Below are positions 1,364 to 14,372 of a stretch of DNA of 32,935 bases, one piece after another. The notes beneath the pieces are model-generated. The model searched no databases. It saw nothing but the letters and a program-made list of their open reading frames with translations, and was not told the DNA's origin. The DNA comes from Cytophagaceae bacterium (GTDB lineage: Bacteria; Bacteroidota; Bacteroidia; Cytophagales; Cytophagaceae). Position 1 is the stretch's first letter, and the number at the start of each line of letters is the position of its first letter. A program made the translations under genes and the position numbers. The stretch is taken from positions 1 to 32,935 of the forward strand of contig JACMQM010000136.1 in assembly GCA_014376985.1 (NCBI GenBank). Reading direction: 5' to 3'.

Positions 1364-1418
1364 CATATCAATGCTTTTCATTTAATTGTCTGTTTTTTTT
1401 GTTATTAAAATCATTCGT

Positions 1419-3842
1419 ATGAAAAATATATTTTTTCTAACGCTATGGCTTGGTGTATCTACCTTGGCTATAGCGCAAGAACTTATTGTAAAAGATAAAA
1501 TAACCTTACAACCATTAGAAGGTGTTTATGTAAAGGGAAATAATACAGGTTCTTATTTGTTAACAAACTCCAAAGGTGTTGTAGACATTGATTCTTTTGC
1601 CAATGCAGATAGTATTCAGATTCAATCAATAGGTTATCGATCTCAAGTATATAGTTATACTGCATTGCAAGCAATGGGTTTCAAACTATCATTAACAGAA
1701 AGTAATACAGCGGCAGACGAAGTCATCGTATCAGCCAGTAAATTTGAAGAAAATAAAAAAGATGTTGCGCAGCAAGTTCAGGTTATTAAAGCCAGTGAAT
1801 TGTCGTTCATGAATCAGCAGACTACGGCCGAAGTACTTCAGCAATCGGGAAATGTTTTGGTCCAAAAAAGTCAACTTGGGGGCGGAAGTCCTATCATCAG
1901 AGGCTTCGAAGCAAATAAAGTCTTGATTGTTGTAGATGGTGTACGTATGAATAATGCCATTTTTAGAGGAGGCCATTTACAAAATGTACTGAGTATGGAT
2001 AATACCATTTTGGATCGTACAGAGATTTTATTTGGTCCTGGTTCAGTAGTTTATGGAAGTGATGCATTGGGTGGAGTGATGCATTTCTATACCAAAAATC
2101 CTAGTTTGGCTTCCAGTCAACAAAAAGTAAATTTCAAAACCAATGCCTTTGCTCGCTACGCTACTGCTTATGATGAGAAGACAGGACATGTCGATTTTAA
2201 TATCGGTTTAAAGAAGATTGCTTTTCTCAGTAGTATCACGATTTCTGATTTTGGAGATTTGCAACAAGGCAGTAACAGGAAGTCTTCTTACGGAGATTGG
2301 GGCAAGCGTAACTTTTACGTAGAACGCATAAACGGTAAAGACAGCATGGTTACGAACAGTGATGTCAATGTACAAAAGCAAACCGGCTACAGACAATACG
2401 ATTTCCTTCAAAAGGTTTTATTTAGGCAAAACGAAAATATTAATCATGTGTTGAATTTTCAATATTCAACTTCCGGTAATGTATACCGGTATGATCGTCT
2501 TACCGAAGTCAACGGCGGGGGTATAGCAAGAAGTGCACAGTGGTACTATGGTCCTCAGTCTCGTTTTTTAGGATCTTACAGATTGAATCTGAAAGGTGAT
2601 AATTTATTCTATAACAAGGCGAGTGTAATATTGGCCTTTCAGGATGTGAAAGAAAGCCGACACAACAGGAATTTCAATAGCAGTAACTTGAACCACCGAA
2701 AAGAACATGTCAACGTATACAGTGTGAATGTTGATTTAGAAAAGACGATCAAAGAAAAACACGAATTGCGTTATGGAGCGGAGTTTGTTTATAATACAGT
2801 AAATTCAAAAGCAGAGCGTGAAAATATTATTACAGGTGCTAAATCAGATCTCGATACACGTTATCCCAATGGTGGCTCTACAATGCAGACAATTGCCTTT
2901 TACGCGACACACTCCTGGCACATCACTAAAAAAGTAGTATTGAATGATGGACTGCGATATAGTAATATCAATTTACATTCTTCTTTCGGAGACAAAACTT
3001 TTTTTCCTTTTCCCTATAATGATATCACTCAAAAATCACATGCCGTAAATGGGAATTTAGGGCTTGTCTACATGCCTGGAGCTGATTGGAGATTTACAGT
3101 ATTAGGATCATCCGGTTTTAGAGCACCAAATGTAGACGATATGGCAAAAGTTTTTGAAAGCACAGGTGGTAGATTGGTGGTGCCTAATCCAGAGTTGAAA
3201 CCAGAGTATACATACAATGTAGAGTTGGGAGCTTCTAAAACAATTGCACAACGTCTTCGAGTGGAAGCTACGGGTTTTTATACCTGGTACATTAATGCTT
3301 TGACCTCTCAAAAAACTCAGTTTAATGGATCGGATAGTATAGTTTATAATGGGATCAACAGTGCGGTGTACCACACTACTAATGCGGCAGAAGCTTATAT
3401 CTACGGTTTAAATGTTGCACTGTATGCTGACATTACATCGAATCTTAGTTTCTCTTCTACATTAAACTATACTTATGGACGAATAAAAACAGATAGTACA
3501 GATTATCCTTTGGATCATATTGCACCCATATTTGGTAAGATCAGTTTGATGTACAAAATGAAAAAAATGAAAGTCGAAGCTTTTACTTTGTACAACGGAG
3601 ACAAATTGAGTAAAGATTTCAATTTGCAAGGCGAAGACAACCAGGCTTATTCTTTAGAACCTGTTAATGGAAAAGTTCCTGCCTGGTATACCTTTAATAT
3701 ACGTTTAGCTTATCAGATCAATGATTATTTGCAGGCACAGGTTGCCCTTGAAAATATAATGGATACTTATTATCGTGTATTTGCATCCGGTATAAGTGCT
3801 CCCGGTCGCAATGCGGTATTTACATTGAGAGCAAGGTTTTAA
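1419..3842 (+). CDS. TonB-dependent outer membrane receptor, hemoglobin/heme-receptor-like, with N-terminal carboxypeptidase-regulatory-like domain
   Basis: ATG at 1419 gives signal peptide MKNIFFLTLWLGVSTLAIAQ; plug motif GGSPIIRGFEANKVLIVVDGVRMNNAIFRGGHLQNV...EILFGPGSVVYGSDALGGVMHFYTK; FRAP and NPEL boxes; terminal aromatic F. Confidence 0.93.
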   Translation: MKNIFFLTLWLGVSTLAIAQELIVKDKITLQPLEGVYVKGNNTGSYLLTNSKGVVDIDSFANADSIQIQSIGYRSQVYSYTALQAMGFKLSLTESNTAADEVIVSASKFEENKKDVAQQVQVIKASELSFMNQQTTAEVLQQSGNVLVQKSQLGGGSPIIRGFEANKVLIVVDGVRMNNAIFRGGHLQNVLSMDNTILDRTEILFGPGSVVYGSDALGGVMHFYTKNPSLASSQQKVNFKTNAFARYATAYDEKTGHVDFNIGLKKIAFLSSITISDFGDLQQGSNRKSSYGDWGKRNFYVERINGKDSMVTNSDVNVQKQTGYRQYDFLQKVLFRQNENINHVLNFQYSTSGNVYRYDRLTEVNGGGIARSAQWYYGPQSRFLGSYRLNLKGDNLFYNKASVILAFQDVKESRHNRNFNSSNLNHRKEHVNVYSVNVDLEKTIKEKHELRYGAEFVYNTVNSKAERENIITGAKSDLDTRYPNGGSTMQTIAFYATHSWHITKKVVLNDGLRYSNINLHSSFGDKTFFPFPYNDITQKSHAVNGNLGLVYMPGADWRFTVLGSSGFRAPNVDDMAKVFESTGGRLVVPNPELKPEYTYNVELGASKTIAQRLRVEATGFYTWYINALTSQKTQFNGSDSIVYNGINSAVYHTTNAAEAYIYGLNVALYADITSNLSFSSTLNYTYGRIKTDSTDYPLDHIAPIFGKISLMYKMKKMKVEAFTLYNGDKLSKDFNLQGEDNQAYSLEPVNGKVPAWYTFNIRLAYQINDYLQAQVALENIMDTYYRVFASGISAPGRNAVFTLRARF

Positions 3843-6154: not shown

Positions 6155-8266
6155 CTAAAATGTCGCACTCACACCACCATAGTAATTTGTAGCAGGTGCA
6201 GCATTGTAGTGTCTGCCACCAACTGCATTCAGGTCGTTGCCTAAACTATATCTTGTGTTTAGAATATTATCAGCACCTGCAAAGAACTCCATCGTCAATC
6301 CTTTTCCTATCGGGTATTTTAGACCGGCTTTCAATTGGAGCAAGTGATAGTCATTGGCATAAACAGAATTGGCATCATTTAGTGGAATGCGGTCTGTATA
6401 ATTGTGTTGAGCAAAAATGTAAAATTGTTTTGGCAATTGTAAGTAAAGACTGGTAACGACAGTAGAAGGAGGTACACCGGTAAGTTTATTGTGAGAATAG
6501 TTTTCTGTAGCAATCTGATAATCTGAAAAGGTAAAATCATAATATGTAAATGCGTTGCGCAATTGCAATCCTCTTATGAAATTAAATTCCCCGGCCTCGA
6601 TCAATTGTAGCGTTAACTGAACTTCTAATCCTTTCTGATTGGTACTTCCTGCATTCACAAAATAATCTGCACCGTTTGCATCTTGTCTTCGTACGATGGC
6701 TTGTTCCAATTGGAAATAAAAGAAAACAATGTCTGCCTGAAATCGCTGGGAAAAGCTTTGCATGCGAAATCCTGTTTCATAGTTCCATCCGGCTTCGGGT
6801 TGAAGATCAGTGTAGATACTATTGGTAGAAGGCCTTACTTCTGCTAGGGTAGGCGGTGAGTAGCCTTTACTGACAGAGACACGCCAGACCAATGCGGGAT
6901 TGATTTTATAAGACAAGGCAATACGTGGAAGTACCTGCGGCTTAAAATGAATTGTATGATGCTCCAGCTCAGCTAATGGATAATTGTTTTGGTAACGGTA
7001 ATTGTAGTAATTCAAACTGACTGCCGCTTCAGCAATTACACGTTTACTGATATCAGCAGAGAACTGAGTAAAGAAAAAATATTGCTGCGCTTTCAGATCA
7101 TCAGCTGTTTGTAAAGTATCCTGTTCTCCTAAACGATTACCGTAGTTATGAATGTTTGAGGACGTTTGTTGTGCTTCTAATCCAATGTTCCATTTCCACT
7201 GAACCTTTTCAGTGAATTGATCTTTCCATTCTAAATACGTTCTTACTCCTCCGGTGTTTTCCTTTCTGACTTCATAATTGGTAATGAATGGGTTTTTAAA
7301 ATCAGTCAAACTGCCAAATAATGCGATGACATGTTTAAAGTGATTCTTAAAATTTGTTTCATGAGAGAGGCCTGCATAAACAGTCTTGTTGTATATAGCT
7401 GCCTTTTGATTTATAGCACTGTTAAACGGTCCTCCTGCCGGTCTCGCTGCACGAGGGTTAGCATCAAACTGGCTTTGTGTCAAACCTCCTGGCGTACGAT
7501 AAGTGAGATTGGAGTATAGAATTAATAATTTGATATGACTGTTGGTCGTATAATTGAATTGTTGAAGTGTTTGCAAATACAAACGCTGCATCGCACTATT
7601 TTCTCTATAACCATCAGCACGTTGAAAAGCCTGATAAACATGCAGACGGTATTTTTTCCATTGTTTATCTAAAGATACTTTCTGGTGAAGCAAGCCATAA
7701 GATCCTCCAGTTAAAGAGGCATTTATTTGTGACGAGTCCATCGTATTGCTTAAGGGCTTAAGCAATACTACACCGCCTGTGTTAGCTCCGAATAAGCTTC
7801 CTTCTGGACCTTTTAGAATTTCAACATGCTTGATGCTGCCTGCATCCAATGAGTTTAAGTAGGTATTACCTCCAGCATCTGTGAGTGGAAAATCGTCTAA
7901 ATAGAGTTTTACATTTCTTATTCCAAATGGTGAACGCAATACACTGCCTCGAATAGATAATCTATAACTCCCTGGTGATCGTTCTTCCATACGAACGCCT
8001 GAAACAGTATTAAGAGCTGGAACTAAAGAATATCCATGTTGTTGGTTCAATTGGCTTTCATTTATCATTCCTACAGAAGAAGGCGAACGAAACAAAGGAC
8101 GCTTTGTAGAATAGATAGTTACCAATGCTTCCGGGATGTCATAGATGATATCGCTGTTCATCGGCTTTGATGACTGAGCAAAAGTAGTAACAGACAAACT
8201 TAAGAGTATAGTAGAGCCAATAATTTTAAGTGGGTGTCGTAAGCCTAAGCCGAAAGTAAACGCCAT
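6155..8266 (-). CDS. TonB-dependent receptor, YncD/PqqU-like plug
   Basis: 703 aa; LSIRGSVLRSPFGIRNVKLYLDDFPLTDAGGNTYLNSLDAGSIKHVEILKGPEGSLFGANTGGVVLLKP plug; C-terminal barrel ending GGVSATF. Confidence 0.88.
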   Translation of the reverse strand: MAFTFGLGLRHPLKIIGSTILLSLSVTTFAQSSKPMNSDIIYDIPEALVTIYSTKRPLFRSPSSVGMINESQLNQQHGYSLVPALNTVSGVRMEERSPGSYRLSIRGSVLRSPFGIRNVKLYLDDFPLTDAGGNTYLNSLDAGSIKHVEILKGPEGSLFGANTGGVVLLKPLSNTMDSSQINASLTGGSYGLLHQKVSLDKQWKKYRLHVYQAFQRADGYRENSAMQRLYLQTLQQFNYTTNSHIKLLILYSNLTYRTPGGLTQSQFDANPRAARPAGGPFNSAINQKAAIYNKTVYAGLSHETNFKNHFKHVIALFGSLTDFKNPFITNYEVRKENTGGVRTYLEWKDQFTEKVQWKWNIGLEAQQTSSNIHNYGNRLGEQDTLQTADDLKAQQYFFFTQFSADISKRVIAEAAVSLNYYNYRYQNNYPLAELEHHTIHFKPQVLPRIALSYKINPALVWRVSVSKGYSPPTLAEVRPSTNSIYTDLQPEAGWNYETGFRMQSFSQRFQADIVFFYFQLEQAIVRRQDANGADYFVNAGSTNQKGLEVQLTLQLIEAGEFNFIRGLQLRNAFTYYDFTFSDYQIATENYSHNKLTGVPPSTVVTSLYLQLPKQFYIFAQHNYTDRIPLNDANSVYANDYHLLQLKAGLKYPIGKGLTMEFFAGADNILNTRYSLGNDLNAVGGRHYNAAPATNYYGGVSATF

Positions 8267-8291
8267 GAAAAATTTTGTTAATCAACACAAC

Positions 8292-8334
8292 AAAGTAAAA
8301 AGAAGAGATACACCTATCAGTATATCTCTTCTTT
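8292..8334 (-). terminator. intrinsic terminator downstream of the acidic-protein gene
   Basis: AAAGAAGAGATA (8299-8310) / TATCTCTTCTTT (8323-8334) perfect 12-bp arms; on the minus strand followed by TTTTACTTTG. Confidence 0.7.
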
Positions 8335-8347
8335 GTTAAACAGGATC

Positions 8348-8659
8348 TTAATTGTCGTGGTTGTCGCCACCTAAACTATAATAATTATTTTCTTCATCTT
8401 CATCTCCATTTTTTTCGCTTTCATCATCTAACTCGGATCCTGGTACATCAAGGTCTTCGCCGGTTTCTGATTCCTCGATTCCTTTTTCATTCCACTTTGC
8501 TGTTCTCAGATCATTTTCCGTTTCTTCTTCTTCACCCGGATGCACATTGGAATCTTTTACCGCTTGATTATAGATGTCTTCATTGGCAGGATATTTAGGA
8601 TAGCCAGGAAACTCTTTTCCTTCGTCCTCTTTTTTGATTTTTACAGGTTGCTTTTTCAT
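8348..8659 (-). CDS. conserved-looking acidic cytoplasmic protein of unknown function
   Basis: ATG at 8659 gives MKKQPVKIKKEDEGKEFPGYPKYPANEDIYNQ...DLDVPGSELDDESEKNGDEDEENNYYSLGGDNHDN, about one third D/E; no signal peptide. Confidence 0.7.
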   Translation of the reverse strand: MKKQPVKIKKEDEGKEFPGYPKYPANEDIYNQAVKDSNVHPGEEEETENDLRTAKWNEKGIEESETGEDLDVPGSELDDESEKNGDEDEENNYYSLGGDNHDN

Positions 8660-8682
8660 AACTGTATCGTTTAAAGTTTGAA

Positions 8683-9990
8683 TTATTTTTTTACAGCACT
8701 GACTTTCCAAATGGTGTTACTCACATCATCGGTGACAAGTAAAGAACCATCAGGAGTAACGATGACTGCTACTGGTCTTCCATGGACTTCGCTTTTATCC
8801 AAATCTGAAATGAAACCGGTTAAGAAGTCTTCTGGAATACCGGAAGGTTTACCATTTTTAAAAGCGACAAATACTACTTTGTATCCTGACAAAACAGAGC
8901 GGTTCCAGGAACCATGTTGTCCGATGAATGCACCATTTTGATATTTTTCAGGGAAGGCTTTTTTAGTATAGAAGGCCAATCCAAGCGAAGCAGTATGAGA
9001 GCCTAAATCAACGTCTGGAACAATAGCTTTCTTTACGAGATCAGGTCGCTTATCTGCATCTTTGATTCTAGGGTCTTCGTGTTGACCGAAGTAAGAGTAA
9101 GGCCAACCATAGAACCCTCCATCTTTCACACTCGTTAGATAATCAGGAACTAAATCATCTCCCAATTCATCGCGCTCATTTACTGCTGTCCACAACGTAT
9201 TGGTACCTGGAGCCCAGCCCATACCTACAGGATTTCTCAGACCACTTGCATAAATACGTTTGCCTTTCCCATCTGGATTAATTTCAATGATGTCAGCTTT
9301 CCATACTTCTTCATCTATGCCATTCTCCGCAACATTACTGCCTGAGCCAACCGCAATATAGATTTTAGTGCCTGCTGTATTAGCAATGATATTTCTAGCC
9401 CAATGGCGATTGTGTTTTCCTGCCGGAAGATCGATGACTTTTTCTCCTTTACCTGTAATTTTTGTTTGTCCTGATTTATAAGAAAATCGAAGTAATACAT
9501 CTGTATTGGCTACATAAAACCAATTACCTAAAACCAGCATGCCAAAAGGTTGATTCAATTCTGCTAAGAATGTATCTCTTACCTCGGGTATACCGTCTTT
9601 ATTCGCATCTCGGAGCAAGGTGATTCTATTGGCGCTGTTACTCAAATCATTTGATTTACCTGCACCGATAATAGTACCGCCCACTTTTTCAAGTATAGAG
9701 TGATGAGAGTTGCTTTCTGCTACCAATACATCTCCATTAGGAAGTACATACAACCAGCGGGGGTTTTGAAATCCGTCGGCATATTTGCTGACTACAAAAC
9801 CTTCGGGTGCACTGGGTTTTTTATTATCAGACCATCCAATTACATGGCTAAAATTAGTAACAGATTTTGTACTGTATGGCAATTCTAAAGTATCACTCTG
9901 CGCCTCTTTATTTATTTTAGGTGCTTGCGCAATGACTTGATAGCCTTGCAAAACAGCTGCTGCAGTCAGGATAAGATACTTCATATTCAT
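8683..9990 (-). CDS. sorbosone/glucose dehydrogenase family protein (PQQ-type six-bladed beta-propeller), secreted
   Basis: ATG at 9990 with signal peptide MNMKYLILTAAAVLQGYQVIAQ; ASGLRNPVGMGWAPGTNTLWTAVNERDELGDDLVPDYLTSVKDGGFYGWPYSYFG, GQHGSWNRS, GRPVAVIVTPDGSLLVTDD. Confidence 0.88.
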   Translation of the reverse strand: MNMKYLILTAAAVLQGYQVIAQAPKINKEAQSDTLELPYSTKSVTNFSHVIGWSDNKKPSAPEGFVVSKYADGFQNPRWLYVLPNGDVLVAESNSHHSILEKVGGTIIGAGKSNDLSNSANRITLLRDANKDGIPEVRDTFLAELNQPFGMLVLGNWFYVANTDVLLRFSYKSGQTKITGKGEKVIDLPAGKHNRHWARNIIANTAGTKIYIAVGSGSNVAENGIDEEVWKADIIEINPDGKGKRIYASGLRNPVGMGWAPGTNTLWTAVNERDELGDDLVPDYLTSVKDGGFYGWPYSYFGQHEDPRIKDADKRPDLVKKAIVPDVDLGSHTASLGLAFYTKKAFPEKYQNGAFIGQHGSWNRSVLSGYKVVFVAFKNGKPSGIPEDFLTGFISDLDKSEVHGRPVAVIVTPDGSLLVTDDVSNTIWKVSAVKK

Positions 9991-10009
9991 AGCTGTATGG
10001 TTGATTATT

Positions 10010-12028
10010 TTATTTCGCAAGAATTTTAAATTCTACACGTCTGTTCAATTGTCTTCCTTTGGCGGTGCTATTTGTACTTACAGGAGCTGCTTCGCCAAAA
10101 TGCTTTACTGTGATGCGGCTAGGATCTATACCTGACTTAGTGATTAAATAGGCAGCTACAGCTTCCGCTCTTTTTTGTGATAATTTATCATTGTAAGTAG
10201 CAGTACCAATGCTGTCAGTATATCCTGATATTTGAACTTTCATAGAGGATGTACTGGAAAGTAATTTTGCCAAACGATTTAATTCCAAATTAGATTCTTT
10301 ACGCAATACTGCTTTGTTGAAATCGAAGAAGATGTTTTTAATAGTGATGGCTTCTCCTACTTCTATAGGTGTTAAGTAAAGGTCTCTTGTGATTTGTTGG
10401 TATTCATTCTGCGATGTCAAATCAATGTTGTCATTGACTGAAATGAATCCTTCTTTGGTAGCAAGGTATCCGTAGCGGTTTTGTGATGGCAATACAATTT
10501 GATAAAATCCATTACGGGGATCTGAAGAGGCAATTCCAACTTCTGCTCCGGTGTTTAGATTTTCGAAGAATATTTTCGTACCCGGTATTGGTTCGTTGGT
10601 TTTGCTGTTCAATACACGACCGCTGATCATGGTTACGGCAGTTGGCTTTAATGATTTCACCAATTGCAAAACGAAAATATCATCGTCACCATCTTTTGCA
10701 CCTTCAGAAGTAAAGTAGATACGTTCTCCAGAAGCAGGAATACTTAGGTAAGTTTCATTGCGCGAGGAGTTGACAATTGGGCCAAGGTTTTCTGGTGCAG
10801 ACCAGTTTGTCCAGCTATCATCTTGTCTTCTTGTTACGTAGATATCTGCACCGCCGTAACCGTTGAATCCATCAGAAGCATAGTATAGTGTTCTATCATC
10901 TGAAGCGAGGAAAGGAGCTTCTTCTGTCGCTGTTGTATTAACAGTTGTGCCTAAGTTGGTAGGTTTTGTCCAGGTGCCGTCATCTGAACGGAAACTAACA
11001 TACAAATCACGATGTCCTATATTTTCTTTTTTATGTTCGACAGATAATAATAATGTCTTTTGATTATTCGACATGAAGAAGTTTGCTCTTGCATTGATGT
11101 TCACATCATTTTCAATCTCTAATCGTTCCGGAAAAGACCAACCGTCTTTTGTACGGTGACTAATCGATACACCATCTTCCATTGTACCGTCTTCATTATA
11201 TGAGTTTCCTAACAATAAAGTATTGCCATCAGGAGAAATAGAATTGATAAAGTTGGGTCCATCATTATTCAAAGGTGCGCCGATGTTTTTAGCCTCGCCC
11301 CAACCTTGCGTACTCTCATTCCATTCTGAATACCAGATGTCTTCTAAATCGCCTTTACCTCCTTTATCTTTAGGATCACCTCTTCTGCTGAAATATAATG
11401 TTTTGCCATCGGGAGAAACAAGCGGACCCATTTCTGGATAAGGACTGTTGATGTTTGTACTAAGTTTAGTAGCAACCATGTTTGCTTTTACTACATCGTT
11501 TGCACTAGGCTTTGTTATTTTAACTGATTTCCCTGATTCTGAAATACCAATTGCATCGATTCCTTCTGTTGTTGCTCCTGCTTTCAATACAATCTTCACT
11601 GCAAGAATATAAAATTTAACATCCTTAGGTTTAATAGCAAGCAAACGACTAGCTTCTGTGCTAGGACTAGTTTGATAGCTCGTTATTTCAACCTCTTTAC
11701 CTTCTGCATCGTAGACGAAAACTTTGTCTACAGAACCTGGATGATTAGTTTCAACAATAACAATTTGTTTAGGTATGATAGGTGTGCGAAATCCTACCTT
11801 AATGAATTGCTGCGTTGATTTATCTTTAGGCTGCCAGGCGTTTCTGTTTTCACCGGAAGCAGGATATACATTTGGTCTTCCTAATACTTGTCGGGCAGAA
11901 AAATCTACATCAGTTTGCTGAGAGGAATATTCTAATACTCGGTATGCCCATTGAACATCCTGAGCATAAACACTAATTGTTAAAAAGGAAAGTAAGAAGA
12001 ATGCAATTATTCTTTTGGTCATAATCAA
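10010..12028 (-). CDS. OmpA-family protein: N-terminal discoidin-like domain, PD40 beta-propeller repeats, CnaB/CarboxypepD_reg-like domain, OmpA C-terminal domain
   Basis: C-terminal NIFFDFNKAVLRKESNLELNRLAKLL...GYTDSIGTATYNDKLSQKRAEAVAAYL...GRQLNRRVEF; repeated SPDGKTLYFSR / SPDGNTLLLGN / SDDRTLYYASDG propeller motifs. Confidence 0.92.
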   Translation of the reverse strand: MIMTKRIIAFFLLSFLTISVYAQDVQWAYRVLEYSSQQTDVDFSARQVLGRPNVYPASGENRNAWQPKDKSTQQFIKVGFRTPIIPKQIVIVETNHPGSVDKVFVYDAEGKEVEITSYQTSPSTEASRLLAIKPKDVKFYILAVKIVLKAGATTEGIDAIGISESGKSVKITKPSANDVVKANMVATKLSTNINSPYPEMGPLVSPDGKTLYFSRRGDPKDKGGKGDLEDIWYSEWNESTQGWGEAKNIGAPLNNDGPNFINSISPDGNTLLLGNSYNEDGTMEDGVSISHRTKDGWSFPERLEIENDVNINARANFFMSNNQKTLLLSVEHKKENIGHRDLYVSFRSDDGTWTKPTNLGTTVNTTATEEAPFLASDDRTLYYASDGFNGYGGADIYVTRRQDDSWTNWSAPENLGPIVNSSRNETYLSIPASGERIYFTSEGAKDGDDDIFVLQLVKSLKPTAVTMISGRVLNSKTNEPIPGTKIFFENLNTGAEVGIASSDPRNGFYQIVLPSQNRYGYLATKEGFISVNDNIDLTSQNEYQQITRDLYLTPIEVGEAITIKNIFFDFNKAVLRKESNLELNRLAKLLSSTSSMKVQISGYTDSIGTATYNDKLSQKRAEAVAAYLITKSGIDPSRITVKHFGEAAPVSTNSTAKGRQLNRRVEFKILAK

Positions 12029-12512: not shown

Positions 12513-13715
12513 CTATCTGCCAAATCGGAAGTAGTGACTCAATGGATTCGGTTCTTTTTTGATCAGGTCAATGATTAATTTCATTCCTATCACAGAGAAT
12601 GCTATTCCATTTCCTCCAAATCCTAAGACAAAATAACTGTTAGGGAATTTAATATGTTCACCGATATAGGGCAGAGAATCTTTCGTTTCACCGAATGTTC
12701 CTGCCCACATGAAGTCCGCATGATAAAAGGTATGAGGCATTATTTCATGAAACTTTTTTTTGATTTTTGATTCCTTGCGATCCAATAATAGGTCTCGTTT
12801 AGATGCATTTTTGAAATCTTCATCTTCTCCACCAATCAATATACGTCCTTCATCCGTTGCTCTTAAATAAAGGTAAGGTTTGCTGGTATTCCAAAACAAA
12901 GTTCCTTTTAGTGCCTCGCTCAGCGTATGCTGTACTTCACTGACACAGGCATAGGTGCTCTTTAATTTTACAATCTTCTCAGGCAAAAAATGTTGTGTCT
13001 CATAACCCGTGCAGTAAATTATTTTACCGGTTGTAATGGCATGACCTGTCTGCGTCTTAAGAAATATTTTATCTTTTTGATAGGTAATTTTTATAGATTC
13101 TGTTTTGTCGAATATTTGCAATCCTCTCTGCGCATTATAATAGAGTATGTCATGTGCTAACTTGAAGGCATCTATACTTGCACCATCAGCCGATAAAATA
13201 GCACCTAATGAAACAATATTATAATCTGATTTTAATTGGTCTTCTTCCAGCCATTCTACTTCAAACCCATAGTGTTTTCTGGTTTCATATTCTTTTCTTA
13301 AGTCCGTCAAGTCTTTGCTTTGAGCGCAGAAGTACAAGGATTTTTTCCATTCGAAACCACAACAGGATTTTACTTCGTCAACGACTTGTTGTAGTTGAGG
13401 AATAGCATCTCGGCAACCTTTGTAACTAGCTACAGCAGCCTCTTCTCCTATCTGCTCAATCAGTTTGTGCAGCGGAATGTCCAGCTCATACTGTAGCATG
13501 GAAGTGGTAGCTGAAGTGCTACCATTGGCTATTTCTCTTTTGTCTATGAGTACCGTTTGAAAGCCTTCTTTCATGCAGGCATGGGCCATCAAAGATCCTG
13601 TAATGCCACTTCCTATAATGAGTACGTCACAATGAAGGTCTTGGTGTAAAGAAGGATAATTGTGCAATAACCCATTTTGCACCAGCCAAAAAGGTTCATT
13701 CGAACGTACATTCAT
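12513..13715 (-). CDS. FAD-dependent oxidoreductase (DAO/glycine-oxidase-like)
   Basis: DVLIIGSGITGSLMAHACMKEGFQTVLIDKREIANGSTSATTSMLQYELD Rossmann motif; DSLPYIGEH and GFGGNGIAFS near C-terminus. Confidence 0.9.
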   Translation of the reverse strand: MNVRSNEPFWLVQNGLLHNYPSLHQDLHCDVLIIGSGITGSLMAHACMKEGFQTVLIDKREIANGSTSATTSMLQYELDIPLHKLIEQIGEEAAVASYKGCRDAIPQLQQVVDEVKSCCGFEWKKSLYFCAQSKDLTDLRKEYETRKHYGFEVEWLEEDQLKSDYNIVSLGAILSADGASIDAFKLAHDILYYNAQRGLQIFDKTESIKITYQKDKIFLKTQTGHAITTGKIIYCTGYETQHFLPEKIVKLKSTYACVSEVQHTLSEALKGTLFWNTSKPYLYLRATDEGRILIGGEDEDFKNASKRDLLLDRKESKIKKKFHEIMPHTFYHADFMWAGTFGETKDSLPYIGEHIKFPNSYFVLGFGGNGIAFSVIGMKLIIDLIKKEPNPLSHYFRFGR

Positions 13716-13718
13716 TGA

Positions 13719-14372
13719 TCAATGGTTTAGAAGTTTGTGGATGTCTTGCATCATCCTCTCAACTTCTACAGAATCCGTGCCATCGTAATAACCACGGATG
13801 TATTGCTCTTGATCTACTAAAACAAATCGCTCGGTATGGATGAAATCCTCTTCTCCACCGTCTCCTTCTTCGTCTACTATAGCATATTGTTTTCGTGCGG
13901 TTTCATACAAGGCATGTTTATCACCGGTTAGGAAAATCCATTTGTTGTGATCTTTTACCCCGTATTGTAGCGCATAACTCATCAGTGCTTCCACGCTGTC
14001 TTCTTCAGGTTTCGAAGTATAAGATACAATTTTCACATTCGGTTCTTTTTCAAATGTACTGTACACTCGCTGCAATTGACTTGACATCTCTTTGCATATA
14101 CCCGGACAGGTTACAAAAAAATAATCCGCAACGTAAATGACAGGTCCGATTTCTTTAGGAGTAATGGTTTGACCTTGCTGATTGGTGAAGGAAAAATTAC
14201 CTACATGTTTATCGGGCTTATTAGATTGATAGACTTTATTAGTGGTAGGATTTGTAACGAAGTAAGGAAGCGTTTGCTGTAATTTTTCGTATTTCCTATA
14301 AGCATAGGTGCCCATGAGTATAACCAATACGACAATACCTACTGTAATAAATTTATTGTTGCTCTTTTCCAT
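13719..14372 (-). CDS. SCO1/SenC-family copper chaperone, membrane anchored
   Basis: CPGIC copper motif in ADYFFVTCPGICKEMSSQL and distal DFIHTERFVLVD histidine; N-terminal TM. Confidence 0.92.
   Translation of the reverse strand: MEKSNNKFITVGIVVLVILMGTYAYRKYEKLQQTLPYFVTNPTTNKVYQSNKPDKHVGNFSFTNQQGQTITPKEIGPVIYVADYFFVTCPGICKEMSSQLQRVYSTFEKEPNVKIVSYTSKPEEDSVEALMSYALQYGVKDHNKWIFLTGDKHALYETARKQYAIVDEEGDGGEEDFIHTERFVLVDQEQYIRGYYDGTDSVEVERMMQDIHKLLNH

Follow-up and report, generated by a model that had tools for sequence, protein, structure and literature searches.

Does a TonB-dependent receptor that resembles the E. coli pyrroloquinoline quinone (PQQ) importer PqqU (YncD), and that is encoded close to a dehydrogenase of a PQQ-using class, supply this enzyme with its cofactor? 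The question is raised by a locus on the minus strand of a 32,935-nucleotide stretch of Cytophagaceae DNA (contig JACMQM010000136.1; the whole stretch is hereafter called the window), which contains the receptor gene (6155..8266) and, upstream of it, the gene of a secreted dehydrogenase (8683..10020). A preliminary description of the locus had proposed a PqqU-like PQQ importer, and all genes and coordinates that it named were recovered. The receptor was found to belong to a Bacteroidota clade, designated W, that lies outside PqqU proper. Receptors of clade W and of its own sister, clade C, recurrently neighbor predicted PQQ dehydrogenases and hardly ever co-occur with canonical PqqU. The proposal is partly supported: genome context ties the receptor to PQQ more broadly than had been noticed, whereas the receptor pocket does so more weakly.

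The receptor belongs to a sister clade of PqqU

The receptor (703 aa) consists of the Pfam domains Plug and TonB_dep_Rec (barrel). In a phmmer search of the PDB it matched YncD/PqqU best (9e-29), with PhuR as the runner-up (1.5e-4), which bears out the likeness to the YncD plug noted in the preliminary description. A profile of the clade likewise retrieved PqqU first (1.3e-79, 271 bits) and FyuA second (4e-18, 68 bits). Among the NCBIfam families, PqqU (NF041535) was the best match of the window receptor and the only family matched by all 15 of the 15 W members scanned. The score of 168.6 bits did not reach the equivalog cut-off of 1200 bits; this is a weak criterion, since canonical PqqUs of Bacteroidota also fall below it (best 415 bits). 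The family of TonB siderophore receptors, TIGR01783, was matched with 100.6 bits, under its cut-off of 223.5.

In a tree of 65 receptors, clade W was recovered with a support of 100/100, apart from the sequences carrying the PqqU signature (100/100). A second tree, with eight outgroup receptors, placed PqqU, W, C and a further Bacteroidota sister clade of PqqU, designated B, in one group (SH-aLRT 100), separate from E. coli FhuA, FepA, BtuB, CirA, FecA, FhuE and Fiu. Within this group W and C were sister to PqqU and B, in a tree that was built by a quick method and has long deep branches. Clustering with siderophore or vitamin receptors was not observed. As judged by these trees, the window receptor is not in the clade of E. 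coli PqqU but in the separate sister clade W. With E. coli PqqU (6v81, 9c4o) it shares TonB dependence, homology over the full length, the plug aromatic at position 99 and the motif SIRG..R..(F/Y)GIR. The two differ in clade membership and in the residues that correspond to R304, R365, K274 and R536 of PqqU, all of which are replaced.

The charged contacts of PqqU are lost from the receptor

PqqU has been defined by an aromatic residue at position 99 (Y/F/W99) together with R304 and R365, and K274 and R536 were shown to be important as well (Munder et al. 2025, PMC12124388). In the alignment, the equivalent of Y99 in the window receptor is F114 and the aromatic is kept, but K274, R304, R365 and R536 are replaced by I291, T321, I372 and A533, respectively, with the loss of four charged contacts. 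Arginine was found in 0/57 W receptors at site 304 and in 0/57 at site 365. The full signature was present in 29 of 30 members of the PqqU clade and absent from the W (0/57), C (0/22) and B (0/9) receptors. A tri-anionic ligand is expected to favor arginines. The loss of the four charged contacts, as read from the sequence, argues against a tri-carboxylate held in the PqqU pose. Since the receptor lies outside the PqqU clade and is missing R304, R365, K274 and R536, PQQ import is not inferable from homology. What stands of the earlier designation as a PqqU-like PQQ importer is that PqqU is the nearest characterized receptor.

It is very improbable that the receptor is an ordinary PqqU whose signature escaped detection through misalignment. 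The NCBIfam matches, both of the window receptor and of the 15 W members scanned, would fit such a protein, but the alignment of PqqU and W is free of gaps around sites 304 and 365 and is anchored there by the motifs YG..R.L.NPL and FGSLTDFKNPF. Moreover, neither arginine occurs in any of the 57 W receptors, and these form a clade of their own (100/100). A search for compensating basic residues specific to W revealed R275 and R448 (receptor numbering), which are R/K in more than 90% of W receptors and rare in PqqU and could compensate if they line the pocket. AlphaFold models computed from two-sequence alignments had a mean pLDDT of 26 and 37.

Clade B was found at the loci L052 (G313:C1:1579200-1597500), L053, L054, L055, L057 and L061, with three copies in one stretch at L052 (234-2372, 5861-7987 and 10224-12371). 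In its receptors, positions 274 (R), 304 (K) and 308 (R) are conserved as basic and the aromatic at 99 is missing; no gene of the GSDH superfamily lies nearby.

The dehydrogenase is a predicted PQQ enzyme of the AA12 type

The dehydrogenase gene, an open reading frame (ORF) of 445 codons on the minus strand, encodes a secreted protein that clears the Pfam cut-offs for GSDH (PF07995) and DUF7133 (PF23500). Judging from the N-termini of the homologues, translation probably starts at the ATG at codon 11 or 13. A PDB search with a profile built from 17 homologues matched the PQQ-dependent AA12 pyranose dehydrogenase 6jt5 best (5.8e-25, nearly the whole chain), followed by other AA12-like enzymes (3e-22), with Asd and sGDH ranking behind.

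The AA12 enzyme contacts PQQ through R273, H363, R430, N431, H539, H560, W563, N564 and R621, and D451 is a calcium ligand (PMC6881789). In the window ORF, the PQQ ligands correspond to R88, H206, R262, N263, H342, H369, W372, N373 and R415 and the calcium ligand to D284. All ten ligands are kept, and all except W372 are invariant across the 17 homologues. The enzyme is predicted to be a PQQ-dependent member of the AA12 type, which sharpens its earlier assignment to a PQQ-using class. In common with the pyranose dehydrogenase CcPDH of Coprinopsis cinerea (6jt5, PMC6881789) it has the PQQ and calcium ligands, the motif HGSWNR..GYKV and the catalytic histidine; unlike CcPDH it is bacterial, single-domain and secreted, and it has neither the cytochrome b domain nor the cellulose-binding domain. 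The aldose sugar dehydrogenase Asd/YliI (2g8s) belongs to the same GSDH superfamily, but its similarity is distant and its PQQ-carboxylate loop is unlike that of the window enzyme.

Receptor and dehydrogenase genes recur together in Bacteroidota

A set of 297 Bacteroidota genomes was searched both with a receptor profile and with a dehydrogenase profile. Orthologs of the AA12 gene were found directly upstream of the receptor gene, on the same strand and at a distance of 15-273 bp, in 11 additional genomes, which represent two families besides that of the window. Four of these belong to family f5 and carry a clade W receptor (G098, G156, G232, G280), and seven belong to family f8 and carry a clade C receptor (G039, G043, G188, G192, G224, G240, G244). 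Gaps of 15-93 bp, as seen in f5 and several f8 genomes, suggest an operon. The linked enzymes belong to a single subfamily of orthologs; outside the window genus, their identity to the window enzyme is 57-62%. Their tree shows one clade (100/100) that also includes three unlinked orthologs.

Other dehydrogenases occupy this place elsewhere. In G121, a YliI-like Asd gene adjoins the receptor gene on the same strand (31 bp), and AA12 was not found there. In G086, G236 and G160, a YliI-like Asd gene is convergent with the receptor gene (474 bp), and these genomes gave no AA12 match; beside some clade C receptors, YliI-like genes stand in for AA12. An Asd-like gene lies 2 bp from the receptor gene on the same strand in G063, and a different AA12 subfamily is divergent from it at 94 bp in G002. 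Conservation of the pair of receptor and AA12 genes, for which the preliminary description had suggested a check, extends across three families, in part of the clade. A first survey, limited to 15 W loci, had indicated that the pair was genus-specific; this was overturned, as f5 and clade C had been missed. In G088, a canonical PqqU gene has an Asd gene 11 bp upstream. Literature searches returned no report on this receptor-dehydrogenase pair.

Adjacency was quantified with one pipeline for all receptor classes, counting loci rather than independent events: of the 79 W and C receptors, 19 have a gene of the GSDH superfamily within 600 bp (15 on the same strand), compared with 1 of 60 heme-type receptors (0 on the same strand; p=8e-5), 1/29 canonical PqqUs and 0/9 clade B receptors. 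The W and C cases are distributed over the genera g1, g3, g22, g27, g30, g32, g33 and g46. On the outgroup tree the linked state needs about 10 changes, and hence linkage was gained or lost repeatedly. Furthermore, presence of AA12 tracks W receptors (25/30 genera, against 42/111 other genera; p=7e-6). Canonical PqqU (45 genomes) and W or C receptors (74 genomes) were found together in 1 of the 297 genomes, where about 11 would be expected (p=1.4e-5), by searches that scored few candidates per genome and possibly missed second copies; none of the p-values is corrected for phylogeny. Within family f24, PqqU occurs in genera g87, g95 and g126, and W in g67, g73, g75, g80, g84, g90 and g106.

A number of observations weigh against PQQ import, in addition to the loss of the charged pocket residues. 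Most W genera, for example those of families f2, f6 and f24, have no dehydrogenase gene beside the receptor gene. The genomes are not independent, with six of the seven AA12-linked C genomes coming from one genus, and overall there is no association between C receptors and the occurrence of AA12 (5/12 genera, p=0.32). The PQQ dependence of the window dehydrogenase is itself a prediction. Finally, a hairpin resembling an intrinsic terminator, with a 16-pair stem (8299..8334, minus strand), precedes the receptor gene and makes it a separate unit from the dehydrogenase in the window genus, a caveat that the preliminary description had raised. In a relative (G007), the equivalent place is taken by a hairpin that is just as strong but differs in sequence.

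Alternatively, the specificity of the receptor may have shifted after the split from PqqU towards an unrelated cargo, such as a siderophore, a heme-like or another planar compound, the pairing with quinoproteins being lineage hitchhiking. In favor of this, most W genera share no neighbor, the receptor gene of the window genus is a separate transcription unit, the dehydrogenase ortholog of G003 is 1.4 Mb away from the receptor gene, and G004 has the ortholog without a close receptor gene. Nevertheless, we regard an unrelated cargo as unlikely. Adjacency at 19/79 against 1/60 loci, spread over several genera and involving different enzymes, counts against it, as do the near-exclusion with PqqU and the clustering of the receptor apart from siderophore and vitamin receptors.

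A possible second route of PQQ uptake

Our preferred reading, held tentatively and at not quite even chances, is that the receptor is a PQQ-related importer, for PQQ or a related form, with a rebuilt pocket. In Bacteroidota, W and C receptors would have a functional link to PQQ-dependent sugar dehydrogenases of the periplasm. The receptor would carry PQQ, perhaps complexed with a metal or in a related form, through the outer membrane. In the periplasm of cells that are unable to make PQQ, secreted apo-enzymes of the AA12 or Asd type would then be loaded with it. The rebuilt pocket would retain the plug aromatic, with replacements at all four positions that form salt bridges in PqqU. We infer the cargo, its transport, the loading of the enzyme and the use of PQQ by it. 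That the partner can be either AA12 or Asd points to what both have in common, the cofactor; however, the two families share sugar substrates as well, and genome context does not tell the one from the other, a further point against PQQ.

The receptor might instead import a substrate or product of the neighboring dehydrogenase, i.e. a sugar, sugar acid or glycoside, which would explain why the pocket arginines were lost. All charged PqqU contacts are gone, and the recurrent neighbors AA12 and Asd are sugar-oxidizing families. On the other hand, the family of the partner varies (AA12-1, AA12-2, Asd) while the cofactor is the constant feature, and no SusD was seen among the neighbors examined. 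AA12 and Asd enzymes oxidize small, porin-permeable sugars in or outside the periplasm. We consider import of the substrate or product improbable.

Import of PQQ would suit the host. In its genome (about 94% complete), profile searches for pqq biosynthesis genes gave nothing above cut-off: pqqB and pqqE had sub-cut-off matches only, as in control genomes, and pqqC had no match, a weak absence because the pqqC positive control gave none either. No eight-blade PQQ-repeat protein (PF13360), no canonical PqqU and no second PqqU-like receptor were found there; GSDH-family matches numbered seven. PqqU-bearing Bacteroidota have also been reported to carry out no PQQ biosynthesis (Munder et al., PMC12124388). 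None of the findings that the preliminary description had named as refuting was made, be it clustering with siderophore or vitamin receptors, absence of PQQ-binding residues from the dehydrogenase or lack of a conserved neighborhood. It had not listed the absence of the PQQ residues from the receptor, and this counts against PQQ import.

In the published census of PQQ scavengers, 206 Bacteroidota genomes were counted as having PqqU by means of the filter Y/F/W99 + R304 + R365 (PMC12124388). W and C receptors fall outside the residue filter of the published surveys. They possibly, though we would not wager on it, constitute a second, unrecognized group of PQQ uptake receptors in Bacteroidota, which holds PQQ, a complex or a derivative without the PqqU arginines and replaces PqqU in many lineages. 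If they serve PQQ enzymes, PQQ scavenging in Bacteroidota has been undercounted: of the 297 genomes sampled, 74 have W or C receptors, compared with 45 that have canonical PqqU. An importer would then also be able to retain its cargo through a rebuilding of its pocket. Should the cargo be something other than PQQ, these data would still indicate a new partnership between receptor and dehydrogenase.

Organization of the locus and neighboring genes

In the order of transcription, the locus consists of a gene for a protein with a PD40 propeller and an OmpA domain, the dehydrogenase gene, a small acidic ORF, the hairpin and the receptor gene. This order is kept in 4/4 available genomes of the genus, one of which is the metagenome-assembled genome Cytophagaceae bacterium C_No_T20_C_bin.142; the receptor gene is interrupted by a contig break in two of the four. 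The small ORF (8348..8659, minus strand; 103 aa from an ATG, 120 aa from an upstream TTG) is highly charged and had no match in a Pfam scan. Its identity to the counterparts in the three remaining genomes is 81-90%, and it always lies between dehydrogenase and receptor, the former being, as described earlier, two genes upstream on the same strand. The PD40-OmpA gene (10010..12028, minus strand; Pfam OmpA, PD40) is directly upstream of the dehydrogenase gene, and this synteny is conserved in the genus only. Its product resembles CHU_0125 and PorE, both below the NCBIfam cut-offs.

Further upstream, genes for a DAO-type FAD oxidoreductase (12513-13715) and a SCO1/SenC copper protein (13719-14372) follow on the minus strand, separated by 3 bp and syntenic in the genus. 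On the opposite strand, the window encodes an 818-aa TonB receptor of the heme/hemoglobin type (1386-3842, plus strand; TIGR01785, 204 bits, sub-cut-off), which is conserved in the genus and served as the control receptor. The sole case of adjacency in the 60 control loci is L196 (G144:C45:196100-208300), where a heme-type receptor gene is convergent with a gene of the AA12 family at 342 bp.

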